A stretch of DNA of 49,322 bases from a virus, in IMG/VR virus record IMGVR_UViG_3300031456_000004, positions 1-49,322 of that record; one strand, written 5' to 3'. Below the pieces are notes generated by a model that was not told the DNA's origin, did not search any database, and worked only from the letters and a program-made list of their open reading frames with translations. Below are positions 1 through 49,322 of this stretch, piece by piece; the first letter of the stretch is position 1; each line of letters opens with the position of its first letter. A program made the translations under genes and the position numbers.

Positions 1-421
1 CCCCCGCCAGAGCGTCCAGGGACTTGCCGTCCGCCGTGAGGCCTTGCGGTCCGAAGTACGGCACACCCGTGCGCCTGGCAAGCTCATTGCCGAAGAAGAC
101 GTGCTCGACCCAAACGATGCCTTTGTGTTTGACCATCCAGTTGGCGCAGGCGTTGAGCGCGGAGTCGTCGTGCCATTCGTAGACGCTGTTCGGGACGAAC
201 GTAGGGCCGATGCGGCGCCACGTGGCGAGGGCGCGATCGGTGTCCGGCACGCGGCCGGAGTCGATGGCCTCTGCGACGGTGCCCTCGGTGTCGACGCCCG
301 GGATGTGGTAGTTCTTGAGCACGTACCGGACGGTCCCGTGCCACGCCTTGCGGGCGTTGCGCCACTCTTCTGGCGCGGGAGGGTCCCATCTGTAATGCAG
401 GCCGAGTGCGAGCTCGCGCGC
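1..421. repeat. Terminal overlap, left copy (imperfect)
   Basis: Bases 1-421 match 48902-49322 with about 17 mismatches and no gaps. Both copies encode the same helicase segment, and most mismatches are silent or conservative. This is best read as the closure of a circular or permuted genome with strain variation at the join rather than an exact packaged terminal repeat. Confidence 0.85.
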
Positions 422-3638: not shown

Positions 3639-5840
3639 ATGGCTCTGCCGACGGACACGCTTGCGCTTTTTCCGTTGTACCCTGTCGCGCCGGATGGTCG
3701 GTGCACTTGCAAAAACGCCACTACGTGCGACCGCGTGGGTAAGCACCCGATGTACGCATGGTCGCGCCTGGCCGCCGCCGAGAAGGTCCACGGGCCCGCG
3801 GGGTGCGGGTACGGCATCGCCACCGGCATGCGCTCCGGCATCGTGGTGGTGGACGTCGACGTGAAGGACGGCGTGGATGGTCGTGCGGCGGTGTCGCACC
3901 TACCCCCTACCTATACCGTGCGCACCCCTACCGGGGGTTACCACTACTATTATGCCTACCCTGGATGGCGCGTGCGTACATCGGCCGGGGAGTTCGCGCC
4001 AGGGGTCGATATCCGGGGCGATGGCGGATATGTCGTGGCACCTGGATCTAAGCACGCTAATTCCGGTTTTTATACGGTGTGCAGCGATGTCGAGATTAGC
4101 GAGTTTCCCGAAGCGCTCGAGGCGTGGGACGGGATCGTCGCTCGCGAAGCGTCCTCCCTGGTGGAATCCCCATTAGCCCGAGGTCAGGACCACACTGATT
4201 GGAACTTCCGCTGGAACGAGGCTATTCGGCATTGCCAAGCGTGTGTGGCCACTGCGCCAGGAGATGGCGGTGCAGCGCTCTTCGTGGTGGCACAAGTCTT
4301 GGTGCGCACCTACGAGCTCCCTTTGGATGCCGCAATGGCCTTGCTGGTGCAGGTGTGGAATCCTCGCGTGCTCGATGCCGACGGCAACCCCTATCCTTGG
4401 GACGAGGACGACTTCGTGCGCAAACTCGAACAGGCGCGGGACGTCGGCACCTTCCGCGTGGGTTGTGCGCCAGAAGGCATGCAGGACCTTGGCGCGGTAT
4501 TCGCCGAGGTGAGGCTCGAGCAGAAGGTGTCGATCGCGGCGCCCCGGAAGGTCAAGGCCGAGGGGCATACCTACAAGTGCAAGCCTGGCGACGTGCCCAA
4601 CGGAGAGCGCTCCAAAGCCTCCCTAGGCGACGTAATCCGGGTCCTATCGACCCACCCCGATTGGGCAGGCACGTTCCAGTACGACGAATTCGCCGACAGG
4701 ATCATCGCGGTCGATCCGCCGATCGCCCTGCTGGCAGAGGGGCCGAAGGGGCTCCAAGACGTCGATGTGATCAATGTGAGGCTCGAGCTCGAGGTCATGC
4801 ACGACATGCTTGTCGGCAAGGATCAGGCCTGGGATGCCGTCGTCTCTGCTGCGGGCCAGCACACATTCCACCCCGTGCAGGACTACCTGCGCTCGTTACC
4901 GGTCGGGGATCCGCGGATGTTCGATGGGTTGGCAGCACGGCTGTTCGGCGCCATCGCCCCCATAGAGGAGGTCTTCCTGAGGAAGTTCATGGTGGCCGCC
5001 GTTCGACGCGCTTTCAAGCCAGGCACCAAGGTCGACTCGGCGTTGGTCCTATACGAGGAAGCCGGCGGCAAGCAGAAGACCACATTCATCAAAGAGCTTT
5101 TCGGTTTCGATTGGGTGGCGTCCTTGTCGCACAATACGCCAGAGGTGGGCAGAAAGCTCCAAGGCAACTGGTGCCTGGACATGGGCGAGATGGGTGCCGT
5201 CACCAAAGGGGAGCTCGAAGACATCAATGAGTTCATGACCGCTTGCGATGACCACTATCGTGCCCCCTACAGCCGCACCTTCCAACGTCGCGCCAGAGGG
5301 GCGGTGCTGACCGGCACGACGAACAACCCCTCGTTCATGCGGACGTCGGCGCACGCTCGACGCTTCTGGCCGATCGAGATCCGTAAGATGATCGACATGA
5401 CCTACCTCCGTGCCAATAGAGATGCCATGTGGGCGGCCGCCGTCGCCCTCGCATTCGCCTCACCTATGTCGGATTGGCTGTTCGACGGTGCGCACTGGCT
5501 GGATGGCACGGAGCTCGCCGCCGGGGTGGTGGTAGGGCTCGAGTACCAGGACCGTGATGCTTGGCATGAGAGCATCGAGCAATACCTATACGGTAGGACT
5601 TTGACCACACCCACCGAGATCTATACTTGCCTGTTCGCAGGGGCCCAGGGTGAGGGGGGATACGACAACCGCAAGCGCGACCGTATCGTCAGAGTGCTGA
5701 GGCACATCGGCTGCGTCTCGCGCGCCACTCGCATCGAAGGCAGAGTCATCAAGCGTTGGCATGTGCCGGAAGAGCTGGCGATGCTGCAGTTGGCGATGAG
5801 GCTAGGCGAACCCTCTCTGCCAGACCCTAGACCTAGCTGA
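3639..5840 (+). CDS. Primase-polymerase / VirE-type superfamily 3 helicase fusion
   Basis: 733 aa. The N-terminal domain is a bifunctional primase-polymerase (AEP type): GKHP near 35, the metal-binding VVDVDVKDG (Asp 72 and 74), TPTGGYH near 97 and GVDIRGDGGYVVAPGS. The C-terminal domain matches the virulence-associated-E helicase family: Walker A AGGKQKTTF near 478, Walker B CLDMGEM and sensor GTTNN. It would prime and unwind phage DNA. Start ATG 3639 has AGAGGA seven bases upstream and lies just inside the mRNA predicted from the promoter. It is followed by a strong terminator and then the candidate origin, a natural position for an initiator. Confidence 0.88.
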   Translation: MALPTDTLALFPLYPVAPDGRCTCKNATTCDRVGKHPMYAWSRLAAAEKVHGPAGCGYGIATGMRSGIVVVDVDVKDGVDGRAAVSHLPPTYTVRTPTGGYHYYYAYPGWRVRTSAGEFAPGVDIRGDGGYVVAPGSKHANSGFYTVCSDVEISEFPEALEAWDGIVAREASSLVESPLARGQDHTDWNFRWNEAIRHCQACVATAPGDGGAALFVVAQVLVRTYELPLDAAMALLVQVWNPRVLDADGNPYPWDEDDFVRKLEQARDVGTFRVGCAPEGMQDLGAVFAEVRLEQKVSIAAPRKVKAEGHTYKCKPGDVPNGERSKASLGDVIRVLSTHPDWAGTFQYDEFADRIIAVDPPIALLAEGPKGLQDVDVINVRLELEVMHDMLVGKDQAWDAVVSAAGQHTFHPVQDYLRSLPVGDPRMFDGLAARLFGAIAPIEEVFLRKFMVAAVRRAFKPGTKVDSALVLYEEAGGKQKTTFIKELFGFDWVASLSHNTPEVGRKLQGNWCLDMGEMGAVTKGELEDINEFMTACDDHYRAPYSRTFQRRARGAVLTGTTNNPSFMRTSAHARRFWPIEIRKMIDMTYLRANRDAMWAAAVALAFASPMSDWLFDGAHWLDGTELAAGVVVGLEYQDRDAWHESIEQYLYGRTLTTPTEIYTCLFAGAQGEGGYDNRKRDRIVRVLRHIGCVSRATRIEGRVIKRWHVPEELAMLQLAMRLGEPSLPDPRPS

Positions 5841-5855
5841 GAGCCTCTGAGGTAG

Positions 5856-5891
5856 GCCCCGACCCCCTGTAACCGGGGCTCGGGGCTTTTT
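5856..5891 (+). terminator. Intrinsic terminator after primase-helicase
   Basis: An 11-bp GC stem (GCCCCGA+CCCC with GGGG+C/TCGGGGC) and a short loop are followed by TTTTT. It closes the primase transcript 15 bases after the stop codon. The loop contains GTAAC, the first copy of the repeat that fills the next 300 bases. Confidence 0.85.
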
Positions 5892-5893
5892 AG

Positions 5894-6192
5894 TGCCTGA
5901 ACGTTACCCTCGTTACCTCGATGCAACCTCGCCTCGGGTTACGCAATAGCGCCATAGAATCAGGTACTTAGACCATCTGTAACCGTGTAACCTTACTTTT
6001 TATATAAGATTATATATATATAAATAAGGCCCTGCACTAGTAGCACCACTGTAACATTACAATGCGTAGCGCCGTACAGAGGGTTGTGGAAACGGTGAAG
6101 TTACAGGTAACACGGTTACGCACCGATCGGTCGGGCTATCCCTCTCCTCTGGCGCGAGGTCTAGCGACGGGGAGTGCAACCGTGACGGTTAC
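5894..6192. other. Candidate replication origin: GTTAC/GTAAC repeats and AT-rich stretch
   Basis: About 330 bases hold no credible gene. GTTAC or its complement occurs at 5903, 5912, 5938, 5979, 5987, 6051, 6100, 6107, 6115 and 6188 (plus 5869 in the terminator), far more than the one or fewer expected by chance. Several form close pairs 7-9 bases apart. Between two clusters lies an almost pure AT tract (5996-6027), a plausible unwinding element in a GC-rich genome. The flanking primase-helicase supports an origin; an operator array for head-gene control is the alternative. Confidence 0.55.
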
Positions 6193-6212
6193 AGTGGTCC
6201 GTGCGTACCTCA

Positions 6213-6223
6213 TGCTACATCCC
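6213..6223 (+). promoter_or_regulatory. Late motif TGCTACATCCC before DUF2213 gene
   Basis: The 11-mer ends four bases before GTG 6228. There is no Shine-Dalgarno sequence in front of this start. First of nine identical copies with identical spacing; proposed phage-specific promoter giving a leaderless transcript. Confidence 0.75.
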
Positions 6224-6227
6224 GGGA

Positions 6228-7319
6228 GTGAAGAGACTAGATCTGCTAGGTAGGCTGAAGTCGGATGCGGGCAGAACCCCCCAAGGGGGTTTGAGAGTGC
6301 CTGCCAATCTCACGAGGACCGGCGTGTTCAAGTACACGTACGCCGATGGGTCCACGGTGCGTGAGCTGAGGCACCCTGACGAGGTCTTCGCCCCCGCCTC
6401 TCTGGCGACGCTGACCGATGCCACCGTCATCGAGGGGCACCCCGACGTGGTGCGGCCTGACAATTGGCAATCGCTCGCCGTGGGTCACGTGCACGAGGCG
6501 ACACGTAATGGCAAGTTCGTTACTGCCAAGGTGATAGTGCAGCACGGTCCGACTATCTCTAAAGTGGATAGTGGAGAGCTTATCGAACTAAGCTGCGGCT
6601 ATGAGTGCAATGTGGTCGAGGAGAGCGGCGTCTACGAAGGCGAGGCTTACGACTCCAAGCAGACCGACATCCGCTACAACCACGTCGGCATGGGTCCTCG
6701 GGATTGGGGACGGGCAGGTAACGAGGTCCAACTAAACCTCGACGGTGGAGTGTCAAGGGGTGATGGTAGTGCGGTCTGCTACATCCCTGGCATGAAGACT
6801 GATGCGGAAGTTATCGCGGAGCTTCGGGCAGATCTCGCCCGCGTGACCGCAGACAGCGCCAAAGCCGACAAGGCCAAGGCAGATGCGCTCGAAGCGAAGT
6901 ACGACGCCAAGGTGGCGGAGCTCGCGGTAGTGCAAGCCAAGCTCGATGCGGCCCTCGCCGCGGGCTCTCCCGAGGCCGTCCAGGCCAAGGTCGACGCCAA
7001 GGTCACTCTCCTCTCTGGCGCCAAGTCGGTGCTCGGCGAGAAGTTCGACGGCAAGGGCACGGACGAGGAAGTGTACGTCCAGGTCATCAAGGCCAAGTAT
7101 CCAGAACGCGACCTCGAAGGCAAGAGCGTGGACTACCTCCGCGCGGCGTTCGACGGCGTGGTCACGGACTTCGCCAAAGGCGAGGACAGCCTCGGTGCGG
7201 CCCGCAAGGCGACCTCGAACCCCGGTGCAACCGGCGGCAACAAGATCGCCGAGTCGCAAGCCAAGATGAAAGAACGCAACGCCAAGGCTTGGGCCGGCGC
7301 GCCCAAGGGGAGCAACTAA
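6228..7319 (+). CDS. DUF2213 phage protein, probable prohead protease with scaffold tail
   Basis: 363 aa from GTG 6228, chosen because the late motif sits exactly four bases upstream; GTG 6201 in the same frame is the alternative. The N-terminal 180 residues match DUF2213, found next to DUF2184 capsids and DUF1073 portals. Conserved-looking IEGHPD (near 73) and LSCGYE (near 122) could provide His and Ser of a herpesvirus-like assembly protease. The C-terminal 175 residues are Ala/Lys/Glu-rich and predicted coiled coil, as in scaffolds. An internal late motif precedes Met 189 in the same frame. First gene of the head operon. Confidence 0.8.
   Translation: MKRLDLLGRLKSDAGRTPQGGLRVPANLTRTGVFKYTYADGSTVRELRHPDEVFAPASLATLTDATVIEGHPDVVRPDNWQSLAVGHVHEATRNGKFVTAKVIVQHGPTISKVDSGELIELSCGYECNVVEESGVYEGEAYDSKQTDIRYNHVGMGPRDWGRAGNEVQLNLDGGVSRGDGSAVCYIPGMKTDAEVIAELRADLARVTADSAKADKAKADALEAKYDAKVAELAVVQAKLDAALAAGSPEAVQAKVDAKVTLLSGAKSVLGEKFDGKGTDEEVYVQVIKAKYPERDLEGKSVDYLRAAFDGVVTDFAKGEDSLGAARKATSNPGATGGNKIAESQAKMKERNAKAWAGAPKGSN
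6777..6787 (+). promoter_or_regulatory. Internal late motif for nested scaffold
   Basis: The exact TGCTACATCCC lies inside the DUF2213 coding sequence, four bases before an in-frame ATG (6792). Its perfect match and spacing inside a gene argue that it is functional and not simply a coding coincidence. Confidence 0.7.
6792..7319 (+). CDS. Nested capsid scaffold protein (in-frame product of DUF2213 gene)
   Basis: 175 aa, identical to the C-terminal part of the DUF2213 protein. It begins MKTDAEVIAELRADLARV, has long Ala/Lys/Glu-rich heptad-like helices and ends in a basic tail (MKERNAKAW), the usual plan of a scaffold with a capsid-binding C-terminus. Lambda C/Nu3 is the known precedent for a scaffold made from an internal start in a protease gene. 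Here the internal start has its own late motif, so extra scaffold could be made by transcription rather than by ribosome re-entry. Inference, strongly supported by the motif. Confidence 0.65.
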   Translation: MKTDAEVIAELRADLARVTADSAKADKAKADALEAKYDAKVAELAVVQAKLDAALAAGSPEAVQAKVDAKVTLLSGAKSVLGEKFDGKGTDEEVYVQVIKAKYPERDLEGKSVDYLRAAFDGVVTDFAKGEDSLGAARKATSNPGATGGNKIAESQAKMKERNAKAWAGAPKGSN

Positions 7320-10120: not shown

Positions 10121-10131
10121 TGCTACATCCC
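10121..10131 (+). promoter_or_regulatory. Late motif before neck genes
   Basis: TGCTACATCCC, then TGGC, then ATG 10136. No ribosome site precedes this start. It would restart late transcription downstream of the capsid terminator. Confidence 0.75.
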
Positions 10132-10516: not shown

Positions 10517-11020
10517 ATGGCGTCCACTAAGGTTACATCTAAGGACAACGGGTATAAGAAGACCCTTGTGCGCATGGGTGCGATGAGCGGCACGAAGCTT
10601 TTCGTGGGCGTCCCCCCTCAGGCGGACAACGTCAAGCACGGCAATAACGGCCTCACCGTGAGCGCCCTCGCGGCGATCCACGAGTACGGCCTCGGCGTTC
10701 CCGAGCGGTCGTTCCTGCGTGCGTGGTTCGACGAGAACGCCGAGAAGATCCGACAGGCCATCAGCGTCATGGCGAAGGCTATCGCCGCGGGTCGCCTCAC
10801 GCCAATGCAGGCCATGGCGCAACTCGGCCTCAAGTTCGTCGGCGAGATCCAGGCGCGCATGGCTCGGAACATCCCGCCGCCGCTCGACCCCAAGACCGTC
10901 GCCCGCAAAGGGTCGAGCATCGCCCTCATCGACACCGGCGTACTGCGTAGCTGGATCTCTTACATCATCCTACTAGACGGCAAGTCCTCGGCGCCAGTGC
11001 GTCCAGCGGGGGCGAAGTGA
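10517..11020 (+). CDS. Neck/tail-completion protein (gp10-like)
   Basis: 167 aa. The layout resembles HK97 gp10-like tail-completion proteins: a basic N-terminus, an AAIHEYGLGVPERSFLR segment (small loop followed by a conserved PERSFLR), a helical middle and a C-terminal DTGVLRSWISYII. The motif PxRSFLR after HE(Y/F)G is typical of that family. It overlaps the next gene by GTGA. Confidence 0.7.
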   Translation: MASTKVTSKDNGYKKTLVRMGAMSGTKLFVGVPPQADNVKHGNNGLTVSALAAIHEYGLGVPERSFLRAWFDENAEKIRQAISVMAKAIAAGRLTPMQAMAQLGLKFVGEIQARMARNIPPPLDPKTVARKGSSIALIDTGVLRSWISYIILLDGKSSAPVRPAGAK

Positions 11021-11553
11021 GCACGCCCTTCGATCTCCCTAAGGCCGAGCTGGCCGCCCTCGTCGCTTCTCTGGCGCAGGTCCCCCTCGATGTGGTGATC
11101 TGGGACGGCGACCCTGAGCCTCGAACCAGCCCGCGCGGGGGGAAGATGTGGGGACTCATCGTCCTCAATCTCACGACCGACATCTCGTGGGGACAGTTCG
11201 AAGAGCGGCAGACCGCCTTCGACGCAGGCACTGGCGCATTGACCACGGTCCAAGTGACCACCGGCGTGGCGACTATCACGTGCCAGGCCAGGCAGTTCGA
11301 TCGCCAAGAGGGCTTCGATGTCTTGCGCAAGATCCGCTCGGGCATGCAGAAGTCCTCGACCGACGATGCGCTCACGGCGATCTCGATGGGCTTCAACAGC
11401 ATCTCGACGATCAACAATCTGAACATGATCGCCGACCATCGGACGATCTCTTTCGCGACGCTCGAGTTCAAGCTGAACTACGCGCTCTACGATGACATCG
11501 ATCAGACGTGGATCGAAAGCGTCGAGGTCACGCAAACCGGCATGGTGCCATGA
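11017..11553 (+). CDS. Neck terminator-like protein
   Basis: 178 aa from a GTG that overlaps the previous stop (GTGA). The size, beta-rich composition and position between a gp10-like protein and tail genes fit the gp12-like phage neck terminator family (LIC_12616 type). I see no catalytic residues. The assignment is by position and overall pattern. Confidence 0.55.
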   Translation: MSTPFDLPKAELAALVASLAQVPLDVVIWDGDPEPRTSPRGGKMWGLIVLNLTTDISWGQFEERQTAFDAGTGALTTVQVTTGVATITCQARQFDRQEGFDVLRKIRSGMQKSSTDDALTAISMGFNSISTINNLNMIADHRTISFATLEFKLNYALYDDIDQTWIESVEVTQTGMVP

Positions 11554-12699: not shown

Positions 12700-14096
12700 G
12701 CGGCCTTCGTCTGGACGTATCGAGGGGTGGCGCACCGCCCGTGCAGATGGCCAACGTCCAAGCCTATGGGCACTCGATCGCCGCGGGCGGGGCGGCTACG
12801 CGCGTGGGCACGACGGACTTCTACGCCAGGCTGAAGAACACCCTGGACCCGCGGTACTTCTCGATGCGGTACCTCGGACACCCGTCGCAGTACACGGCTC
12901 AGATTCTCCCTCAAGCCGCCGCGGACATCGACGCGTTCGTCGACCCTACGAAGATCAATATCTTCATCTACATCGAAGTCATCAATTCGGTGTCGCACTA
13001 CATGGCAGGTCTCGGGCAGGACACGGCGACTGCGGCGGCGAACGCCATCGTCGACCATATGCTCATGTTCTCATTGCGCAAAGCGGCAGGCTTCCAGAAG
13101 TGCATCGCCTATACGATGTACCACCCTTTTGGTTTCGACGGGCCGCAGAATGCTTGCGTTGACCTCATCAATGCCGCCCTGCGCGCAGCCGTTGGCGGAG
13201 GCATCATCGACGCCGTGGTGGACATAGCAGCCACGGCAGAACCTCGCTTCACGGTCACGGGCCCGCCAGGCACGAGCCTCACGGTATCGGACAACACGCA
13301 CCCCACGGACTACGGCCACGCCATCATGGCGGACCGCGGGCGGCCAGTCATCCAGGCGATCTACGAGAGCGCCGGCGGACCCCTCCACTCCTACACCCCG
13401 CTGTCCAATGGCGACCTGCTGGCGTGGTATGAAGCCGCCCCTGCCAACGTCACGCAAGACGTCTCTCAAAAGGTCTCCCTCTGGAAGGACCTGTCGTCTT
13501 GGGGATACGACCTTTCAGCGGCAGGTGCGCTCCGCCCCACATTCAATGCAGCGAACGGGTTGTACGGCAGCCGTCCTACGGTGGACGCCGCGTCGAACTG
13601 CATGACCACCGCGCTCAACGTCGACCTTTCCTACACGCGCAACTTCGAGATCGTGATGCTCTTCACGTGCTCATCCACGGCCACGATCATGGGCGAGTTC
13701 TCGTCCCTGTACAGCTCGTTCACGGATTCGTGGATCATGCAGTACCACAATAACTCGACGGGTCCGGAGATCACCGCGATCGGCAACGTGGGCCCCTCGG
13801 TCTGCCGCGCCCCTACGCCCACGACCGTCAAGGCGGTCTCGCTCATTGTGGACAACACCTTGTCGTCCGGGCAAGCGCGCATCCTTTCAGAGGGCGTCCT
13901 CGTGCCAAGCATCGTGCAGATCGACGGCCCCAACACCAATCGCTTTGGGCTCCGTACCCTGAACCTATTCGCTCGCGCGGCAGGTATCGCACCCAGTACG
14001 ATGTCCTGCGCGGCCTTCCTCATGTTCTCCCGCATCCTTACGACCCCCGAGCGTACGGCCCTGTTGGCGTACCTTATGGCTGCTTGGCCGCACTGA
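12696..14096 (+). CDS. Tail fibre/spike with SGNH hydrolase and LamG-like domain
   Basis: 466 aa. Near residue 24 AYGHSIAAGG holds the block I Ser, and near residue 198 DNTHPTDYGH holds the block V Asp and His of SGNH/GDSL esterases, so it probably deacetylates or cleaves a surface polysaccharide during adsorption. The second half resembles the LamG domain of the gene before it, with a matching end (TTPERTALLAYLMAAW), suggesting domain duplication. GTG start overlaps the upstream stop. Its 3' end overlaps the convergent lipoprotein gene by 23 bases. Confidence 0.7.
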   Translation: MSGLRLDVSRGGAPPVQMANVQAYGHSIAAGGAATRVGTTDFYARLKNTLDPRYFSMRYLGHPSQYTAQILPQAAADIDAFVDPTKINIFIYIEVINSVSHYMAGLGQDTATAAANAIVDHMLMFSLRKAAGFQKCIAYTMYHPFGFDGPQNACVDLINAALRAAVGGGIIDAVVDIAATAEPRFTVTGPPGTSLTVSDNTHPTDYGHAIMADRGRPVIQAIYESAGGPLHSYTPLSNGDLLAWYEAAPANVTQDVSQKVSLWKDLSSWGYDLSAAGALRPTFNAANGLYGSRPTVDAASNCMTTALNVDLSYTRNFEIVMLFTCSSTATIMGEFSSLYSSFTDSWIMQYHNNSTGPEITAIGNVGPSVCRAPTPTTVKAVSLIVDNTLSSGQARILSEGVLVPSIVQIDGPNTNRFGLRTLNLFARAAGIAPSTMSCAAFLMFSRILTTPERTALLAYLMAAWPH

Positions 14097-14424
14097 CGAA
14101 GTCGATATCGGCATAGGCGCCGACGGTCACATTGGTCTGGCCGTCGGTCGTGCCGCACTGCACGGTCACGCGCTTGGCGTAGTCGAGGTCGCGGATCCAA
14201 TGCTCGAGCACCACGCCGTCGGCGGCTTTGACTTCGACCGCGGCGGGCAAGGTCTCGTAGTCGTGCCATGCATACCACACGATGTCGCCATCGGCGAAGT
14301 AGTTGCCGTGGTTGCAGCGCTCGACGATGGTGTCGACCGTCGGCTCGTCGTCGGGGGTAGCGGCCGCGCAGCCGGCGAGAGCAAGGGCGAGGAAAACGAA
14401 CAGGGAAACAATTGCGTTGTTCAT
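14074..14424 (-). CDS. Predicted lipoprotein in a leftward island (116 aa)
   Basis: Signal peptide plus lipobox (LALAGC, Cys near residue 19), then an acidic linker and a compact beta domain with one or two Cys. It is probably anchored in the cell envelope. It points against the late genes and has its own strong leaderless promoter, so it is likely expressed early or independently. An envelope lipoprotein expressed this way could block superinfection; this is speculation. No family recognised. Confidence 0.65.
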   Translation of the reverse strand: MNNAIVSLFVFLALALAGCAAATPDDEPTVDTIVERCNHGNYFADGDIVWYAWHDYETLPAAVEVKAADGVVLEHWIRDLDYAKRVTVQCGTTDGQTNVTVGAYADIDFVSAAKQP

Positions 14425-14431
14425 ATCCCAG

Positions 14432-14459
14432 AACGTAACCCCGTCTCGAGGTCTGTCAA
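14432..14459 (-). promoter_or_regulatory. Leaderless sigma70 promoter of the lipoprotein
   Basis: Minus strand: TTGACA, 16 bases, TACGTT, seven bases, ATG 14424. The TGA stop of the upstream gene lies inside the TTGACA box. The whole 39-base unit, including the CTCGAG palindrome in the spacer, is about 80% identical to the promoter at 35713-35740. Confidence 0.8.
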
Positions 14460-15676
14460 GTGACTGCGGTCTTTATGCCCGACGAATGTAGTCCGACGTA
14501 GAGCTTGTCGTTCGAATTCCAGAGGAAGCGGTTGCCGTCCGACATGATCTGGTTCCGGGGCGGGTCGACGCCGCCAGCGGTGTTCAGGTTCCCGGTATCG
14601 GTCACGTGCCAGCTCACTCCGCTGTCCACGCTGTAGAGCAAGGTCGAGCGTTCAAGGGTCTGGCCTACGTCGCGGTTGGTCAACATGCACCACACGCTGC
14701 CCGCGCTCGAGAGGTCCCACACCTCCCAGTTCAAGGATCCGCCGGCGAACTTGAGCGTCCAGGTGATCGCATCGGGGCTCGTATAGACAGAGATCTGGTT
14801 GGCCGAGAAGTTCGTGAACAGGCTCACGTACATCCACAACCCCTCGACGGCGTTGTAGTGAATGGCCCGGCCGGCGAAGTTGGCGGCGTTGGGGAGACCG
14901 GTCCTCAGGGTGAACGTTACACCGTCATCGGAGGTGAAGTAGTTGCCGCCCGTGGTGGCGCTACGGGGGACGGCGACGAAGCGCGTGGGGCTCGAAGCGC
15001 AGGACCAATGACCCGTAAAGCCGGAGAAGGTCGCGGGCACGGAAGAGCTGGCGTTGGTCCAGTTGGCCGCACCGGCGGACTTGTACATCACGGGGGCGGA
15101 GCCTGTCGTGCCGAGAGCGATGAAGGTCGAACCGCTGGCCAGCCAAGAGACTTCTCTGAAGGTGTTGGCCACGGACGGCATCGTCCAGGACGACCACGTG
15201 TTCGAACCCGTTGGCAGGGAATACCCCCGCCCGCCCGTGCCGTCAACCCCCACTACCAGCCCCGCCGGATTGGCGCCCAAGATGGGCTTGCTCAACGTAG
15301 CGACGGGCCATGCACCCATAGTCGTCCAGCCCGTGTCGTAGCTGACGTAGGGGAAGTCGCCCGCGCCCAAGCTGGCGCTCGCAATCCAACGATTGGCCAC
15401 GGCGTCATAGGCGGTCTTGTAGGTATTGGTGAACCCCGCATCTTTGAACGTCAGAGTCTCCGCCTGGCCGAGCCCGTCGACCGCGCTCTGCAGCGCCACG
15501 AACCCTTGGTTGTAGACGTAGTTGACGTACTCGGCGGCGGCGGCCTGGCCCGGGATGAATCCTCCAGCAGCGCTCGGCGGCGCGACCTTGATCGGTGTGC
15601 CTGCCCACGGGTCTGGACCGGCCGGGTAATTCACGTTCGTCGCCCAGTTGAAGAAGACACCGGTAGGTCGAGCCAT
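14456..15676 (-). CDS. Tail protein with predicted beta-propeller
   Basis: 406 aa beginning MARPTGVFFNWATN. Repeated segments such as WIASASLGAGDFPYVSYDTGWT, NYFTSDDGVTFTLR, VYTSPDAITWTLKF and LLYSVDSGVSWHVTD fit BNR/sialidase-like blades, suggesting a six- or seven-bladed propeller that binds host glycan. The start at 15676 is chosen because the late motif ends exactly four bases upstream. It runs leftward amid rightward late genes, sharing a divergent late promoter with the lysis cassette. Confidence 0.65.
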   Translation of the reverse strand: MARPTGVFFNWATNVNYPAGPDPWAGTPIKVAPPSAAGGFIPGQAAAAEYVNYVYNQGFVALQSAVDGLGQAETLTFKDAGFTNTYKTAYDAVANRWIASASLGAGDFPYVSYDTGWTTMGAWPVATLSKPILGANPAGLVVGVDGTGGRGYSLPTGSNTWSSWTMPSVANTFREVSWLASGSTFIALGTTGSAPVMYKSAGAANWTNASSSVPATFSGFTGHWSCASSPTRFVAVPRSATTGGNYFTSDDGVTFTLRTGLPNAANFAGRAIHYNAVEGLWMYVSLFTNFSANQISVYTSPDAITWTLKFAGGSLNWEVWDLSSAGSVWCMLTNRDVGQTLERSTLLYSVDSGVSWHVTDTGNLNTAGGVDPPRNQIMSDGNRFLWNSNDKLYVGLHSSGIKTAVT

Positions 15677-15680
15677 GCAA

Positions 15681-15691
15681 GGGATGTAGCA
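15681..15691 (-). promoter_or_regulatory. Late motif for the propeller tail gene
   Basis: TGCTACATCCC on the minus strand, four bases before ATG 15676. It faces away from the copy at 15702-15712 with only ten bases between them. Confidence 0.75.
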
Positions 15692-15701
15692 CATTGTCGT
15701 C

Positions 15702-15712
15702 TGCTACATCCC
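15702..15712 (+). promoter_or_regulatory. Late motif for the lysis cassette
   Basis: TGCTACATCCC, then ACGC, then ATG 15717. The position where a -35 box would lie is occupied by the opposite motif copy. Confidence 0.75.
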
Positions 15713-17491: not shown

Positions 17492-17502
17492 TGCTACATC
17501 CC
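17492..17502 (+). promoter_or_regulatory. Late motif before sheath gene
   Basis: TGCTACATCCC, then TGGC, then ATG 17507. It would start the long tail transcript running through sheath, tube, chaperone, tape measure and baseplate genes. Confidence 0.75.
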
Positions 17503-18845: not shown

Positions 18846-19280
18846 ATGGCAACCGTCGGCAATTACAACGCCCGTAACATCATCATCATCGCGGCCGGCA
18901 TCCCGATCTCGGGGGGTTTCGCCCCCGGCTCTAAGGTGAAGGTCACGCAAACGAACGACAGCTACACGGTGCAAGAGGGCGTCGAGGGCGACATCACGCG
19001 CTCGGCCACCAACTCCTCGCTGTTCACCGTCACCTTCCGGCTCCTCCAGACCAGCAAATTCAACGCTCCGTTGTCCGCCTTCCACACGGCAGACCGCGCC
19101 AGCGTGAACGGTTCCGGCATCGCACCCACAACGGTGAAAGATAAAGGTGGCGCTTCGCTACACTTTCTGGCACAGTCGTGGATTACGAAGTTTCCGGAAG
19201 CAGATTACTCGGGTGAAGACACCTTTAGGGAATGGGTAATCACTGGTCTTTCGGAGGTCAATATCCTCGGAGGCAACTGA
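18846..19280 (+). CDS. Tail tube protein (DUF3277)
   Basis: 144 aa, single small beta-barrel protein typical of DUF3277: NYNARNIIIIAAGIPISGG at the start and GLSEVNILGGN at the end. It forms the inner tube. It directly follows the sheath and precedes the frameshifting chaperone, the standard order. Overlaps the next start by TGATG. Confidence 0.85.
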   Translation: MATVGNYNARNIIIIAAGIPISGGFAPGSKVKVTQTNDSYTVQEGVEGDITRSATNSSLFTVTFRLLQTSKFNAPLSAFHTADRASVNGSGIAPTTVKDKGGASLHFLAQSWITKFPEADYSGEDTFREWVITGLSEVNILGGN

Positions 19281-24030: not shown

Positions 24031-24041
24031 TGCTACATCCC
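24031..24041 (+). promoter_or_regulatory. Late motif before baseplate wedge genes
   Basis: TGCTACATCCC, then GAGG, then GTG 24046. A partial second copy (GTACATCC) lies directly upstream. Here the four spacer bases happen to read GAGG but sit too close to the start to act as a ribosome site. Confidence 0.7.
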
Positions 24042-27753: not shown

Positions 27754-27764
27754 GGGATGTAGCA
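27754..27764 (-). promoter_or_regulatory. Late motif for small terminase operon
   Basis: TGCTACATCCC on the minus strand, four bases before ATG 27749. It is back to back with the portal motif, with seven bases between the two copies. Confidence 0.75.
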
Positions 27765-27771
27765 TACCCTC

Positions 27772-27782
27772 TGCTACATCCC
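27772..27782 (+). promoter_or_regulatory. Late motif for portal operon
   Basis: TGCTACATCCC, then TCGT, then ATG 27787. Divergent partner of the copy at 27754-27764. Confidence 0.75.
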
Positions 27783-35712: not shown

Positions 35713-35740
35713 AAACTAACCCGCCCTCGAGACCTGTCAA
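35713..35740 (-). promoter_or_regulatory. Leaderless sigma70 promoter of the Dam chain
   Basis: Minus strand: TTGACA, 16 bases, TAGTTT, seven bases, ATG 35705. The terminase TGA stop lies inside TTGACA. The spacer holds CTCGAG and the block CTGGGATATG is shared exactly with the promoter at 14432-14459. Confidence 0.8.
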
Positions 35741-37188
35741 GCGTCTGGCTTGTACAATCCCGCGCGCTCGGCGCCAGCCATCATCGACGCGTAGGAGGAG
35801 CTCCTACTGTAGAGGTGATTCAACGCCTGAGCTCCGCTGTCCACCTGGTCATCGTGCGCACCGTTGGGGAAGGCGCAAAGCTCGTCCTCATACTCGAGGA
35901 TCCAAGGGCAGAGCTCGGACGTCGGGTGGTAGACGTTGCCCGATTCGTAGAACACCGCCGCGGCTTCGGCGCGCGCGATCTTCGACTCGCCCTTGTCCTT
36001 CACCGGGATCAGCCCCGCCACGTGCTTGCGGAGGATCTGCATGACCGACGGCCCGTTGGCCTTGTCTTCGACGAGGATGCCCCTGGCGCGCTTCCACTTC
36101 ACGCGCATGTCCACGATGCCCTTCGCCGAGCCAAGGACGTTGACGTGCTCCCTGAAGCGATCGAGGAGGTAGTAGTCCGCGCCGACCTTGCCCCACACCG
36201 TGCCGACAACCCAGTCGTTGTGCTCTTGATCCTTGAACGCCATGTCCCAAGACTGGATGATCGAATCGAACTTGACGGGGACGACCGCGTAGGTCTTGAA
36301 CCAGTTGCGTTTGAAGACGTTACCGCCGGCGGGCGACGGGCGCTGTTGGTGTTGGGCCGCGGTGCCTTGCGCCCGCAACGTGAGCTCGCGCGCGTTGATC
36401 TCCGCCAGGGGGAAGCGCTCGGGGAAGAACAGCTCGCCCTCCACGGTGCGCGGGTCTCGACCGAACGCGGTCACGCACGGGTTCTCGGCCTCGTACCGCA
36501 TCGGCAAACGCAGATGCACCCAGCCTTCGTGCTTCTCTTCCTTCAGGATGTACCCGACGAGGTCGTCCTCGTGCAGCCGCTGCATGATGATGCACTTCCG
36601 CACCGTCCGCGGATCGCCGCGGGTCGACAACGCCTGGCGCCACCATTCGACCGCCTGCTCGAGGTTCTTCATCGAGAGGTCCTGCGCTTTGGTGGGGTCA
36701 TCGATGAGGAGCATGTCGGGGTGGAACCCTGTGCCCTTGCCTTCGACCGACGTCGAGAACCTAAAGCCTCCCTTACTGTTCGTGAAGTACCGCGACGCCG
36801 GCTTCTTCGGCAGCGTGAACTCGCCGCCCCATCGATCCGTGAACCACTGCGACTTGACGATCTTCAGCATATGATCGGCGTCGCGCAGCGTCAGCCCGAG
36901 ATCAAACGAAGCGACGAGCGAGGAGAACCCCGGGTTCTGGATCCAACACCAAGCCGGGAAGAACACCGATGCGAGCATCGACTTCGTTCCACCCGGCGGT
37001 ATGTTGATGATCAGACGCCGTGTCTCCCCGCGGTACAGCGCTTCGAGGTGCGCACACACGAGGACGAGGTGCCAGTTGTCTACGAACGGTTTGGTGTTGA
37101 CGACGCCCCACGCCATCTTGACGAAGCGGTACAGCGAACGCTTGCCAAGCTCGCGCTCGGTCGATATGCGAATCTGTTCGGGGGTCAC
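35737..37188 (-). CDS. terL: Large terminase subunit
   Basis: 483 aa packaging ATPase-nuclease. Walker A NIPPGGTKSML (residues 62-72), Walker B MLLIDDP (159-165), and nuclease acidic motifs QSWDMAFK, VEDKANG and AHDDQVDS. The GTG start overlaps the stop of the sigma factor gene (GTGA). It lies more than 8 kb from the small terminase and portal, on the early-type leftward strand, and is translated together with the sigma factor. Confidence 0.9.
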   Translation of the reverse strand: MTPEQIRISTERELGKRSLYRFVKMAWGVVNTKPFVDNWHLVLVCAHLEALYRGETRRLIINIPPGGTKSMLASVFFPAWCWIQNPGFSSLVASFDLGLTLRDADHMLKIVKSQWFTDRWGGEFTLPKKPASRYFTNSKGGFRFSTSVEGKGTGFHPDMLLIDDPTKAQDLSMKNLEQAVEWWRQALSTRGDPRTVRKCIIMQRLHEDDLVGYILKEEKHEGWVHLRLPMRYEAENPCVTAFGRDPRTVEGELFFPERFPLAEINARELTLRAQGTAAQHQQRPSPAGGNVFKRNWFKTYAVVPVKFDSIIQSWDMAFKDQEHNDWVVGTVWGKVGADYYLLDRFREHVNVLGSAKGIVDMRVKWKRARGILVEDKANGPSVMQILRKHVAGLIPVKDKGESKIARAEAAAVFYESGNVYHPTSELCPWILEYEDELCAFPNGAHDDQVDSGAQALNHLYSRSSSYASMMAGAERAGLYKPDA

Positions 37189-37979
37189 GGGATCAGCAGG
37201 TCGCGGAGCTTGGCGACGATGCGCTCGTACTCGAGTTGGTCCGCTGGCTCGATGTGCTTGGCCTTCCGCACGTGGCGCCGCTCGAGCACGGTGAGTTTCT
37301 TCATCGCGCCAGCGAGCGCGGACAGGCGTTGCTCTTGCTCGTCTGCCTCTTCGATCTCGATCATCTGTTCTTCAGCATCCGGTCGGTCTTGGTGGGAGCT
37401 CTCGGTGCGCGCGAGCCGCGTGAGGAAGTTCTCTGCACCGTCATTCATTCCGAGGGCCCACTTATCCACGACGTCGACGGACTGGACGATCGGCGGGTAG
37501 CGCCAGCGCTCGAGCTGCGCTTCGGATACACCGAGCTCCTCGGCCGTGGCGTCGCGCCCGTGCTCAGCGCGTATGCGGTCCTGGCGCCGGAGTAGGTGCT
37601 GCGGGATGGTGCTCATGCGGCGTTGGTTGACGCACGGGACCTTGTCGAGGTACGTGTCGAGGAAGTGCCAGATCCAACCCCGAGTCGGTGTTGCGAAGAC
37701 GGTGCCGCGAGTCGGGTCGTACCGGTCCAGGGAATAGAGCAGCGCCTCGACCGCGACTTGGTTGTAGTCTTCGAGGGCGTCGGTGTTGCGCTCCAGCTCC
37801 TTCTTCCTGGCGAAGCGGTCGACTTCCCCGAGCATGAGCTGGCGGAACTGGTGGACGATCGTGTTGCGGATCTCGAGCGCGCGCGGCGAGCGCTTGTCGG
37901 TCAGCTTGGCGTACTCCCGGAAGAGCTCCCAATCCTGGACGTCCGGCGCCGGCGGTAGTCTTGCTTTTCGTTTGGTCAT
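37185..37979 (-). CDS. Phage-encoded sigma70-family factor with degenerate region 4
   Basis: 264 aa. Region 2 is clear at about residues 70-108: ALEDYNQVAVEALLYSLDRY, then DPTRGTVFATPTRGWIWHF, aligning with the core- and -10-binding helices of RpoD. Region 3 follows (STIPQHLLRRQDRIRAEHGR, DATAEELGVSEAQLERW). The C-terminal 45 residues begin like region 4 (ALAGAMKKLTVLERRHVRK) but lack the second helix-turn-helix of region 4.2, so -35 recognition may be absent. It is the natural candidate reader of the nine late motifs. ATG overlaps the phosphoesterase stop. Confidence 0.75.
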   Translation of the reverse strand: MTKRKARLPPAPDVQDWELFREYAKLTDKRSPRALEIRNTIVHQFRQLMLGEVDRFARKKELERNTDALEDYNQVAVEALLYSLDRYDPTRGTVFATPTRGWIWHFLDTYLDKVPCVNQRRMSTIPQHLLRRQDRIRAEHGRDATAEELGVSEAQLERWRYPPIVQSVDVVDKWALGMNDGAENFLTRLARTESSHQDRPDAEEQMIEIEEADEQEQRLSALAGAMKKLTVLERRHVRKAKHIEPADQLEYERIVAKLRDLLIP

Positions 37980-41200: not shown

Positions 41201-41228
41201 ATCATAACTTCGGCGACCACGGTGTCAA
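41201..41228 (-). promoter_or_regulatory. Leaderless sigma70 promoter of the secreted protein
   Basis: Minus strand: TTGACA, 16 bases, TATGAT, six bases, ATG 41194. The -10 differs from consensus in one base, making this the strongest-looking promoter in the window. It overlaps the stop codon of the polymerase gene. Confidence 0.8.
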
Positions 41229-42041
41229 CCTGCCGTTCGCATCTTTCAACGGCTCCGCTGATTTAGACCACCGCGTCATGAGCAGGGTCTCTATGGGCTC
41301 AAAAGGACATCCAGGTAACCACGGATTGGCGCCTTCTGCCATGACCTGCCCGAGCCGGACCGCTGCCTCTGGCGCGACGTCGACAGGGGATTCGGCGATG
41401 ATCTCGTCGTGTACGAAGTTCACACACCTTGTGCCGAAGAGCTGGGAAGTAGGCACCGCGTAGCATTCCTTCTGCACGAGCCAGAGCGCGTGACACGCGG
41501 CATCGGCGCCGAGCCCCTGGAAGAACGAGTTGGCAGCGGCGGTGTACGTCGCACCCGAGCGCCAGCGGTTGGAGCGGAGGTGCCGGAGCGTCGCGAGTTT
41601 CTTCGGATTGTTGACGAGCTTGCGGATGAAGGCAAAGTAGTCTTGCATCTCCGGCCACTGCGCCAGCCACTGCTGCTTGAGCTCCTTGGCGCGCTCGGGA
41701 GTGAGCACCACTTTGTAGGACTTCTTCGCGAAGAAGACGAACTTTTCGACGCCCAAGCCCCCGGGCAGACCGAAGTTGCAAACCTTACCCACCTGTCGCA
41801 TATTGTCGAAGTCCTTGTCCTTGGACTTCTTCAGCTTGGTGCCCTCCTCGTAGGTGATGCCGAGGATCTTGGCGGCGAGCGCCGTGTGCGGGTCGATGCC
41901 GGCGTTGATCGATTGGGCGAGGGTCGAGTACCCCACGAGGTCGAGGCACGCCTGGCCGAGCGTGTGGAGCTCCAACGACGGGTAGTCGCCTTGAATAAAC
42001 ACGTACCCCGGGCGGGGCACGAAACATTGACGGACTTCCAC
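41202..42041 (-). CDS. Family A DNA polymerase, palm/fingers subunit (split gene, part 2)
   Basis: 279 aa from GTG 42041, which overlaps the zinc-protein stop (TAGTG). It starts MEVRQCFVPRPGYVF exactly where PolA motif A begins: IQGDYPSLEL (motif A), RQVGKVCNFG (motif B) and FVHDE (motif C) are all intact. The upstream part of the enzyme is the separate gene at 42315-43568. All polymerase catalytic residues are kept, so the two chains could assemble into an active enzyme. Confidence 0.85.
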   Translation of the reverse strand: MEVRQCFVPRPGYVFIQGDYPSLELHTLGQACLDLVGYSTLAQSINAGIDPHTALAAKILGITYEEGTKLKKSKDKDFDNMRQVGKVCNFGLPGGLGVEKFVFFAKKSYKVVLTPERAKELKQQWLAQWPEMQDYFAFIRKLVNNPKKLATLRHLRSNRWRSGATYTAAANSFFQGLGADAACHALWLVQKECYAVPTSQLFGTRCVNFVHDEIIAESPVDVAPEAAVRLGQVMAEGANPWLPGCPFEPIETLLMTRWSKSAEPLKDANGRLTPWSPKL

Positions 42042-42187
42042 TACCAGCACCCTTGGCAGGTTCGCGGCTCGCCTTCGAGGATGGCGCAGCAATCGTCGCA
42101 CGTCACGTCGCCGCAGATCGAGCACTCGCTGTAGAACTCTTCGTCGTCATCCGCGTCGTAAGTTTGCCCGCATGCACATTCGATCAT
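42041..42187 (-). CDS. Zinc-ribbon protein inside the split polymerase (48 aa)
   Basis: CACGQTY near residue 4, CSIC, CDDCC and CQGC supply at least four Cys pairs in 48 residues, consistent with one or two zinc ribbons. The start overlaps the preceding stop (ATGA) and the stop overlaps the second polymerase gene (TAGTG). It may help hold the two polymerase parts together, or be unrelated cargo. Confidence 0.65.
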   Translation of the reverse strand: MIECACGQTYDADDDEEFYSECSICGDVTCDDCCAILEGEPRTCQGCW

Positions 42188-42318
42188 CGTCGCCCCCGTC
42201 GGTACCAGGAGAAGGGGATCCGCCGCGACCGCCCGGCTAGCGCCACAAGGAGCCGCTCCGCCGTGTCGATGTCATAGCACTGCATGCCGGTGATCAGTCG
42301 TAGCTCGCTCGGTTTCAT
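42184..42318 (-). CDS. Small protein inside the split polymerase (44 aa)
   Basis: MKPSELRLITGMQCYDIDTA then a helix and a strongly basic tail (GRSRRIPFSWYRRGRR). It overlaps the first polymerase gene by ATGA and the zinc-ribbon gene by ATGA. No family recognised. Confidence 0.6.
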   Translation of the reverse strand: MKPSELRLITGMQCYDIDTAERLLVALAGRSRRIPFSWYRRGRR

Positions 42319-43568
42319 TCGTCGTCCTCGTCATCATGAAGCGCCGCGCGGCGCCAGTTCTGTACGTTCGGTTTGGAGCTCGTGGTCCGACCCGTTTCGG
42401 CGAGATCGAACCGAGAGTGAATTGGGTAGTGGATGCCTTGCAATACCGCTTTGATGTCGTTCGAAAGCATCTTGGTGAGCGTCGAGAACATCGCGTACGC
42501 GTGCAGCGCTTCGTCGTCCACCGCCACGCAGGAGTCCGAGGTCAGGGACACGCAGTCGTATTCGCCGAACCCCTTCTCGCCGGCCAGGTGCTTCTTCACG
42601 TCCCACGATGGGGTGCGGGGGACACGGAGCCCCTCGCGTTTGCAAAGCTCGACCATCGCCTTCTTCGGGAGCTTCGTGTCGCGCGTGCCGTTCGGGCGCA
42701 CCCAACCGATGTCGGTCAGGAAGGCTTTGATTTCCTCGTACTCCTGGCGCGTCTCGGCCTCGAGTAGCCGTACTCCCACCTCGTCGGTGCGCAAGCCCCA
42801 AGCCGACATGAGACCGAGCGCCCACATGCGCCGCGCCAAACGGAACTCGTCCTCCAAAAACTTCGCATGCTTCTCCTGGGAGATGAAGATGTCACACGTG
42901 GCGCGCGCGTCGTCCACGGCGTAGGTGATGCATCGCGTGGGGTCGTCGGCGATCATCGCCTCGAGTCCAGCGACGCGGTCCTTCAGCATGCGCTTCTTCG
43001 GTTCGAGGGCGAGGGCAGCGCGGGCCTGTTCGAGGAGGGGCACCGACAGGGCTTGGACTTCGATGGCGCGCTCGGTCCACCGTTCGAGAGGCGTATCGCG
43101 GAACCAACCGTAGGAGAGACGCCAGGCATCCTTGGTGAGGGCGAGCGGCGAGTGGCGCGTGACGACGTCGGAAAGCTCGTAGGTGACCTTGCGCCACTTG
43201 GACGTGACGGGGTCGCGGTAGCCGCGGTACTTGCCTGCGGCGATGTCGAGGAGCTTCTGGCGGAGCATGGTGTCGGTCACGCGGTCTTGCTCGTAGGCGT
43301 TGACCACGAGGGGCAAGAACTCCGGCCACTGCGCGCACACCACACGGAGGTCATAGGCGACGTTGTGCCCGACGATGAGGGTCTGGGGCGAGAGGAGGTT
43401 GTCGCCGACGAGTTCGCGGCTCGTGGTCCAGTGGTGCAGGGCTGGCACGGTGGTGGCGCCGGTGCTGGCGTCGACGTACTGCTCGGTGATGCAGACGATG
43501 GGTGGCGCCTGCCAACCGACTTCGATGAGTGCGGTCTCAGAATCCCAGCACCAAGCGGTGGTGGTCAT
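42315..43568 (-). CDS. Family A DNA polymerase, exonuclease/thumb subunit (split gene, part 1)
   Basis: 417 aa. 3'-5' exonuclease motifs: CWDSETAL (Asp 9, Glu 11), VGHNVAYDLRV (motif II) and YAVDDARATCD (motif III). It continues through the thumb and ends just after ETGRTTSSKPNVQN, the conserved element immediately before motif A, with an acidic tail DDEDDE. So the gene stops precisely at a domain boundary. It is followed by two small genes and then the rest of the polymerase, all overlapping. Confidence 0.85.
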   Translation of the reverse strand: MTTTAWCWDSETALIEVGWQAPPIVCITEQYVDASTGATTVPALHHWTTSRELVGDNLLSPQTLIVGHNVAYDLRVVCAQWPEFLPLVVNAYEQDRVTDTMLRQKLLDIAAGKYRGYRDPVTSKWRKVTYELSDVVTRHSPLALTKDAWRLSYGWFRDTPLERWTERAIEVQALSVPLLEQARAALALEPKKRMLKDRVAGLEAMIADDPTRCITYAVDDARATCDIFISQEKHAKFLEDEFRLARRMWALGLMSAWGLRTDEVGVRLLEAETRQEYEEIKAFLTDIGWVRPNGTRDTKLPKKAMVELCKREGLRVPRTPSWDVKKHLAGEKGFGEYDCVSLTSDSCVAVDDEALHAYAMFSTLTKMLSNDIKAVLQGIHYPIHSRFDLAETGRTTSSKPNVQNWRRAALHDDEDDE

Positions 43569-43729
43569 GTCTTGCCGCGCGTGAACCGCTCGACGGCCTG
43601 CCAGAAGTCTTTCGCCTCGGCGAAGGTCAGGTGCGCGATCATCGCACCGTCCTGGTCCTTGAACTTGACGTCGACACCGGTCGGTGTTTGCTTCACGTCT
43701 ACGCCGAACGCTACCGCTTCCTTGATCAT
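43565..43729 (-). CDS. Small hypothetical protein (54 aa)
   Basis: MIKEAVAFGVDVKQTPTGV, a short beta hairpin region and a helix (FAEAKDFWQAVERF). ATG 43729 overlaps the upstream stop, and its TGA overlaps the polymerase start, both as ATGA. No family recognised. Confidence 0.6.
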   Translation of the reverse strand: MIKEAVAFGVDVKQTPTGVDVKFKDQDGAMIAHLTFAEAKDFWQAVERFTRGKT

Positions 43730-44172
43730 GCCCATGCCTCTGCACGTTGCCGTGCCAATTGTGTCGCGGCCTTCTGCTCTAAGATCTCCCAAGCGTAGCA
43801 GTGCCGATGTGTCTGCGTCGGCAGGTGCCAATATTGAAGGCCCGCCCCGCTGTTCTTCTTCATGCGATAGCACTTCCAACAGAGACCGTGAGCCTTGTGA
43901 AGACGATCGGGGTGACACGTAGGAACGGCGCCCATCCGCCTGCCGCTGGCGGCGACTCTAGGCCGCGGGACGTATAGACGAAGGTGACTGGCGCGGCGGC
44001 GAGCCTTCGCTCTTGCCTTGATCTCGGGGAAGTGTGCTACAAACTTGCCTTTATCGCGCCAACGCTTGACGCTGTTTTCGGTCGCGCGAACTGCCGCGGC
44101 TTCCGTTTGATCCTGCCATGCACCGGAATATCCGAGCTCTCCCAGTGCTTCATCGAGGTCCGTGAATGCCAT
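43726..44172 (-). CDS. Hypothetical protein with zinc-binding motif (148 aa)
   Basis: A helical HTH-like first half (AAAVRATENSVKRWRDKGKF) is followed by CHPDRLHKAHGLCWKCYRMK, where C...GLCxxCY resembles the zinc motif of phage HNH or recombination endonuclease VII-like proteins. No catalytic H-N-H set is obvious. It starts one base after the upstream stop. Confidence 0.6.
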   Translation of the reverse strand: MAFTDLDEALGELGYSGAWQDQTEAAAVRATENSVKRWRDKGKFVAHFPEIKARAKARRRASHLRLYVPRPRVAASGRRMGAVPTCHPDRLHKAHGLCWKCYRMKKNSGAGLQYWHLPTQTHRHCYAWEILEQKAATQLARQRAEAWA

Positions 44173-45451: not shown

Positions 45452-45627
45452 CACTCTTCGCCCACGACGTAGCAGAATTCAAACTCACCGTCTTGCCCGT
45501 GCTCGGTGTCGTCGAGCACGCCGTCGGTGCCGTCCTGCAAAGCCTGCCAGGCCTCTTCTTCAGACTCAGCGTCGATGCTCCACGTCTCGACGTTCACGAT
45601 CTCTCGGCTGAAGATGTAGGTCTTCAT
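45451..45627 (-). CDS. Small acidic protein (58 aa)
   Basis: MKTYIFSREIVNVETWSIDA followed by many Asp/Glu (EEEAWQALQDGTDGVLDDTE). Small acidic phage proteins often mimic DNA or inhibit host proteins; this is only a suggestion. Overlaps both neighbours. Confidence 0.6.
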   Translation of the reverse strand: MKTYIFSREIVNVETWSIDAESEEEAWQALQDGTDGVLDDTEHGQDGEFEFCYVVGEE

Positions 45628-45959
45628 GACTTCGCGATCTCGGCAGCGATGGCGCGCGCGAACAGTTCCTTGACGTCGGCCTCCGTGCGGGAGTCGTTGA
45701 AGGCGATCAGGTCCTTGGTGCGGCCGAGGCTCGTGCGGCATTCTTCAGGTAGCGCGAGCCAGAGCGGGAATTGCAGCTCGCGCTCAGACTCGTAACCGCT
45801 CCCGTCATCGCCGGATCCTGCCCAATAGGTGGCCGTAACGACGCACATGGTGTTCAGACTAGCGTCGTGCGTCGCGGCCTCTCGGGGCCGGCCATTCCAC
45901 CAACCGTTCGTTTCGATGAGCGCGAGCGCTGCCTGCAAACCTTTTAAGATGACGTTCAT
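45624..45959 (-). CDS. DUF6197-like hypothetical protein (111 aa)
   Basis: Helical N-terminus (ILKGLQAALALIETNGW), a central CVVTATYWAG region and a C-terminal helix (ADVKELFARAIAAEIAKS), a layout seen in DUF6197 proteins. Function unknown. Overlaps neighbours by ATGA. Confidence 0.5.
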   Translation of the reverse strand: MNVILKGLQAALALIETNGWWNGRPREAATHDASLNTMCVVTATYWAGSGDDGSGYESERELQFPLWLALPEECRTSLGRTKDLIAFNDSRTEADVKELFARAIAAEIAKS

Positions 45960-48543: not shown

Positions 48544-49322
48544 CGCCTCCAACGATAGCCTGGCATGCTTCGGATGTCAATCTCCGTTGGAAAGTCTTTC
48601 GAACAGAGCGCGATCTTCGGCTCTTGCTTCAGCATGTCAAACACCGCGCCACCGGTGGCCAGAGAGTTCATGAGACCGTCGAAGTGTTCAATGCACCCTA
48701 TCATGATGTCGACGTACACCTCGTCCTCGCGCTGGCCCGGGCGGTGCGTGCGGCCGATGAGTTGCTCGAAGGGCAGCGCGGTCGAGGGGCATGCCGTGAT
48801 GAGGTTGCGGTTCCAGCCGTACTGTAGGTTGAAACCAGTGGAGCACGCGGCGATCGAGCAGATGATGGGCTGGCGCGGGAGCTTGGGGTTGTCGCGGTAC
48901 GCCCCCGCCAGAGCGTCCAGGGACTTGCCGTCCGCCGTGAGGCCTTGCGGTCCGAAGTACGGCACACCCGTGCGCCTGGCAAGCTCATTGCCGAAGAAGA
49001 CGTGCTCGACCCAAACGATGCCTTTGTGCTTGATCATCCAGTTGGCGCAGGCGTTGAGCGCGGAGTCGTCGTGCCATTCGTAGACGCTGTTCGGGACGAA
49101 CGTAGGGCCGATGCGGCGCCACGTGGCGAGGGCTTCCCCGGTGTCGGGCACGCGGCCCGAGTCGATGGCCTCTGCGACGGTGCCCTCGGTGTCGACGCCC
49201 GGGATGTGGTAGTTCTTGAGCACGTAGCGGACGGTCCCGTGCCAGGCCTTGCGGGCGTTGCGCCACTCTTCTGGCGCGGGGGGATCCCAACGGTAGTGCA
49301 GACCGAGTGCGAGCTCGCGCGC
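48540..49322 (-). CDS. SNF2-type helicase, C-terminal part (continues from base 1)
   Basis: The C-terminal RecA-like lobe of the helicase. CSIAACSTGFNLQYG (motif V) and QLIGRTHRPGQREDEV (motif VI, arginine finger) are clear. Bases 48902-49322 duplicate 1-421, so this piece and the one at 1-1387 are one gene of 582 aa once the ends are joined. The stop overlaps the lipoprotein start by ATGA. Confidence 0.85.
   Translation of the reverse strand, partial: ARELALGLHYRWDPPAPEEWRNARKAWHGTVRYVLKNYHIPGVDTEGTVAEAIDSGRVPDTGEALATWRRIGPTFVPNSVYEWHDDSALNACANWMIKHKGIVWVEHVFFGNELARRTGVPYFGPQGLTADGKSLDALAGAYRDNPKLPRQPIICSIAACSTGFNLQYGWNRNLITACPSTALPFEQLIGRTHRPGQREDEVYVDIMIGCIEHFDGLMNSLATGGAVFDMLKQEPKIALCSKDFPTEIDIRSMPGYRWRR
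48902..49322. repeat. Terminal overlap, right copy (imperfect)
   Basis: Matches bases 1-421 with about 17 mismatches, concentrated at 49131-49136 and 49281-49302 in this copy. The protein changes are few (for example Val to Ile and Asp-Arg to Gly-Glu), so both versions look functional. Confidence 0.85.

Follow-up and report, generated by a model that had tools for sequence, protein, structure and literature searches.

The window analysed here, i.e., the whole stretch of 49,322 nucleotides of the IMG/VR record IMGVR_UViG_3300031456_000004, contains a sigma factor gene whose product appeared to end without region 4.2, and nine late motifs that appeared to share no -35 sequence. This raises the question of whether the one reads the other, and whether the loss of region 4.2 explains the missing -35, as the first-pass annotation had proposed. 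The two ends of the window (1-421 and 48902-49322) are repeats of one another, differing at 17 of 421 bases and identical over the first 127, and the contig therefore probably represents a genome close to closure, in which the overlap differs between strains. A DUF6197 protein encoded at 45624-45959 on the minus strand (Pfam, E 8e-13) is a possible clue to the host group.

The sigma70-family protein P0001 (37185-37979, minus strand) is encoded by an intact reading frame of 264 aa from ATG through stop. Its 3' end overlaps by 4 nt the start (GTG at 37188) of the large terminase gene terL (35737-37188, minus strand), which follows directly downstream and has no late motif of its own. Both genes belong to a leftward chain, as annotated before, and replication genes are part of this chain as well. 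The family A DNA polymerase of the window (41202-43745, minus strand) is divided between two ORFs that are separated by two small ones (products of about 44 aa and of 48 aa, the latter rich in Cys), whereas the polymerase of the relative L119 is a single ORF of 624 aa (5167-7041); a group I intron was considered for the split gene and rejected, no Rfam match being obtained.

Regions 2 and 3 of P0001 had been described as strong. Both are present, yet the wording overstates the case for general family profiles: Pfam region 2 reaches 18.1 bits, under the cutoff of 24 bits, Pfam region 3 does not match P0001, and PHROG 351 (sigma factor) matches at E 8e-5. The identity as a sigma factor is settled by a profile of four orthologs, built without P0001, which matches residues 19-169 at E 7e-19, against E 0.5 for the best of 2000 shuffles. 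An AlphaFold2 model based on a 13-sequence homolog alignment, which replaced a single-sequence model that was too weak, has a mean pLDDT of about 93 over most of region 2 and the region 3 helices. By ortholog profile and model, region 2 comprises residues ~17-113 (37641-37931, minus strand) and region 3 residues ~127-160 (37500-37601, minus strand). At the sigma70 positions 430, 433, 437 and 440, region 2 carries P, G, H and D, and region 3 carries His at the position of H455 and Arg at that of E458. Judged by PHROG, ortholog profile, predicted structure and synteny, P0001 is thus a sigma70-family protein with regions 2 and 3. No other sigma-like ORF was found in the window. In tblastn searches with P0001 the matches were weak ones to Synechococcus phage sigmas (E 4e-4 to 6e-3), none of them establishing direct homology to gp55; a PDB sequence search returned no sigma, and general sigma factors were among the matches listed by a fold search.

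In place of region 4, P0001 is predicted to possess a C-terminal helical hairpin without a helix-turn-helix (residues 202-262; 37194-37376, minus strand). In the AlphaFold2 model, a disordered linker (~162-199) is followed by two helices (202-238 and 245-262), such that the structure prediction suggested as a check by the first-pass annotation yields a two-helix hairpin and no full region 4 fold. A region-4 profile scores 1.3 bits on this C-terminus, and 139 of 300 shuffles score as well; in leave-one-out scoring, 11 of 12 homologs obtain 12.9-45 bits, scores that none of 300 shuffles equals, whereas the twelfth, L258, fails as well. The earlier claim of a missing region 4.2 is thereby upheld in the sense that region 4 appears absent or eroded, with no recognisable region 4.2. 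Alignments with MAFFT place the C-terminus differently, so that the exact region 4 residues lost are uncertain. Elsewhere in the window no region 4 was detected either (best E 0.32 over ORFs of at least 25 aa).

The window is a metagenomic contig with a single representative, and the missing region 4 might in principle reflect an assembly error or a decayed gene. This we consider hardly credible: no frame around the 3' end of P0001 encodes region 4, which rules out a hidden frameshift; the 4-nt overlap between sigma stop and terL start is kept as in L119 (sigma ends at 9986, terL starts at 9983); in the alignment the C-terminal change looks like an internal in-frame shortening; and the flawless late motifs indicate intact late regulation.

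The late motif itself reads TGCTACATCCC-N4-[A/G]TG and is present in nine perfect copies. Its first eight bases, TGCTACAT, occur nine times exactly in the window, each time followed by CCC, N4 and ATG or GTG (shuffle expectation 0), i.e., nine genes start exactly 7 bases past an identical 8-base sequence, and the spacer between TGCTACATCCC and the start codon has one length only. Within the window, copies at the same spacing with one or two mismatches are absent, and a single copy with three mismatches contrasts with 3.4 expected by chance. The nine motifs noted before are consequently real, and stricter than had been described (an 11-mer at a fixed distance from the start codon). When the first base of the start codon (A or G) is taken as +1, all nine have T at -15, G at -14, T at -12, A at -11 and CCC at -7 to -5, and the invariant block aligns to the canonical numbering of extended -10 elements. 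The earlier reading as an extended -10 plus a CCC discriminator agrees with this register, and so does the claim of no shared -35, the columns -36 to -31 being unconserved. Weak conservation at -41, -22 and -17 was not counted as a -35, because two divergent pairs account for four of the nine rows and share upstream sequence. None of the listed motif genes is preceded by a Shine-Dalgarno match of at least 4 nt. Since the sites can be read as extended -10 elements with the start codon as +1, leaderless extended -10 late promoters are the simplest reading of the nine sequences. A motif search of viral contigs gave single chance matches among the matches listed and no phage sharing the motif, and a search for the divergent pair gave no match.

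All nine motifs are situated in the virion and lysis half of the genome. On the plus strand, motif scan and annotation predict late promoters for the head maturation protease (6213-6223; GTG 6228), for virion structural protein/neck genes (10121-10131; ATG 10136), for the tail sheath (17492-17502; ATG 17507), for the baseplate wedge (24031-24041; GTG 24046) and for the portal (27772-27782; ATG 27787). The latter forms a divergent pair with the predicted promoter of the small terminase (27754-27764, minus strand; ATG 27749). The second divergent pair consists of the predicted promoters of an unknown gene at 14456-15676 on the minus strand (15681-15691, minus strand) and of an 80-aa ORF starting at 15717 (15702-15712, plus strand); the latter ORF lies upstream of an Rz1-like ORF and probably belongs to the lysis region. 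The remaining copy is nested within the protease gene (6228-7319): it was found by the motif scan at 6777-6787 on the plus strand, before an in-frame ATG at 6792, whose product of 175 aa is charged, alanine-rich and coiled-coil-like and probably a scaffold. No CTANNCT, the late motif of related phages, was seen inside their protease genes. The putative nested scaffold promoter, the fixed distance to the start codon and the precedent of T4 gp55 had all been missed before.

The extreme invariance of TGCTACATCCC and its fixed distance from the start codon would also suit a binding site for an activator or a translation-start signal instead of a -10 element, and the two divergent pairs form inverted repeats. 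Such a function is very improbable, however, because the sites occur singly as well as in pairs, because their position and their TG..TA content are exactly those of an extended -10, and because in relatives this position is occupied by a TA-containing motif of different spelling.

Of these relatives, L204 and L205 were found, with others, by means of a polymerase alignment and L252 by means of a sigma alignment, and L119 was included in addition; scans with sigma alone or portal alone found no relatives. In L119, L204, L205 and L252 the sigma gene is situated directly before terL, in synteny with the window. The four orthologs share with P0001 this position, an insertion of five residues between regions 2.4 and 3 (5/5) and late starts of a leaderless -10 type, but unlike P0001 each of the four has retained region 4, as judged from alignment and leave-one-out scoring (below the Pfam cutoff in L119, L204 and L205), and the eroded sigma is found in one genome only. 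Their late motif differs as well: in L119, L204 and L252, late genes start 5-6 nt past CTANNCT (CTANNCT-N5/6-RTG), without TG, whereas for L205/G003, with 4 sites, no clear late motif could be established. Twelve CTANNCT sites from these three genomes are invariant at -13, -12, -11, -8 and -7 and unconserved upstream, although the sites were picked by inspecting late starts, such that part of this conservation stems from selection. Genome-wide, the motif is enriched in the three relatives (8 vs 0.9, 10 vs 1.6 and 4 vs 0.3 expected).

No -35 conservation is found at these 12 sites either. The proposal that the missing region 4.2 explains the missing -35 therefore fails: since relatives that bear region 4 lack a -35 as well, its absence characterises the clade as a whole and is no consequence of the loss of region 4.2. 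The covariation of protein and motif, proposed as a further check, gave a more favourable result, as the three relatives with near-identical region 2 share CTANNCT, whereas the window sigma, divergent in regions 2 and 3, goes with a different motif. What might track the loss of region 4 is the TG extension together with the strict 11-mer, which for a single lineage (n=1) is suggestive only. Residues 455 and 458 of sigma70 read the TG element (PMC2613000). At position 455, P0001 has His and a TG motif, whereas the relatives have Pro or Val and no TG; with one lineage and Arg at 458, a link between His455 and TG is likewise suggestive only, and the replacement of E458, the other TG-reading residue, speaks against reading of TG.

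The main rival to P0001 as the reader of the motif is the primary sigma of the host, P0001 then doing something else. Promoters of this kind (-10-only and leaderless) exist in some high-GC bacteria: the TANNNT promoters of M. tuberculosis show no conservation at -35, and leaderless genes make up about a quarter of the total (PMC3898074). The window motif resembles these in being -10-only, with the start at the start codon and no -35; the CTANNCT of the relatives fits TANNNT; and in G007, a relative that lacks a sigma, 5 TGNTANNNT-RTG sites occur where 1.4 are expected. The actinobacterial element, however, is a degenerate hexamer with T at -7 that is read by a host sigma, whereas the window motif has C at this position (TACATC) and breaks TANNNT; a variant-free 11-mer is far stricter than usual primary-sigma promoters; and the window has no excess of TANNNT-RTG (33 against 32.2 expected). 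We consider reading by the host sigma unlikely.

Instead, P0001 is more probably a late sigma that reads the nine leaderless extended -10 sites with regions 2 and 3 and without a -35, a pairing of factor and motif to which we assign a probability of roughly 0.6. According to this reading, P0001 would be encoded as a late sigma in the leftward replication operon, would replace the host sigma on core RNA polymerase late in infection and would direct it to the nine identical sites in the virion and lysis half. Regions 2 and 3 would read TG at -15/-14, TA at -12/-11 and then CATCCC, a span from -15 to -5, and transcription would begin with the start codon's first base, such that the late mRNAs would be leaderless. 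With region 4 eroded, P0001 could not read a -35; extended -10 elements are known to bypass the contact between sigma4 and the -35 (PMC7403470). Against a function of P0001 in this role, two core aromatics of region 2.3 (at 430 and 433) are replaced by Pro and Gly, which makes its melting function uncertain.

Among phage sigmas that function in the absence of region 4, T4 gp55 is the best studied, and its extreme divergence makes its origin difficult to follow. gp55 reads an 8-bp, -10-only late promoter that resembles extended -10 promoters (PMC2988020, PMC7892883). Like P0001, it is a late factor of the sigma70 family with sigma2 and without sigma4, acting at a -10-like element without a -35; unlike gp55, P0001 has retained region 3 in recognisable form, together with a C-terminal hairpin as a remnant, and the 49-kb window phage is unrelated to T4, apparently leaderless in its late genes, and possesses the TG element and CCC. 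A T4-type replisome was not found in the window, the polymerase belonging to family A and no sliding clamp being present among the proteins scanned. By analogy, P0001 may thus work like gp55, as a functional likeness that does not imply identity with it. In the Thermus phage P23-45, middle and late expression is biased to extended -10 promoters because gp39 displaces region 4 of the host sigma (PMC7403470). In both phages the contact between sigma4 and the -35 would be removed at extended -10 promoters, but in the window phage it is the phage sigma itself that lacks region 4.

The T4 precedent also suggests a variant in which P0001 needs a second protein to read the motif, one providing the function of region 4 at the flap in trans, as gp33 does for gp55. 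Two relatives encode free-standing region-4-like helix-turn-helix proteins of 69-83 aa, L119/G001 (18857-19105, minus strand) and L204/G002 (15120-15326, plus strand), the latter matching Pfam Sigma70_r4 at E 2.8e-7, and these are possible separate region-4 partners. L206, a more distant relative, has two sigma-like ORFs (10699-11385 and 13615-14271), one with a canonical region 4 and the other, by Pfam, with region 2 only. In the window no such partner is detectable by the region-4 search described above, which weighs little, as gp33 itself has no recognisable sigma homology. Obligate dependence on such a partner is rather improbable, slightly more so than reading by the host sigma. For P0001 as the late sigma, a helper may nonetheless be required or act alongside it, because even extended -10 promoters can depend on sigma4, as for sigmaB of M. 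tuberculosis (PMC7403470); the residual C-terminal hairpin may still touch the beta flap.

More tentatively, and with doubts that outweigh our confidence, the comparison could mean that, within one clade of small phages, the domain that reads the -35 was lost from one late sigma and retained in its orthologs, and that the late promoters compensated by acquiring the TG and an 11-base signal that is invariant and tied to the start codon. At one and the same genome position, the clade possesses orthologs that have region 4 and one that lacks it, and three of the four relatives have a readable late motif, such that the loss of sigma4 and the accompanying change of promoters are open to testing by domain swaps. 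The fixed 11-mer with its start codon would constitute a compact signal for leaderless expression. The arrangement resembles the known trick of T4, here in an unrelated small phage whose relatives keep the lost domain, and, if true, it would show in nature the states before and after sigma4 became dispensable.
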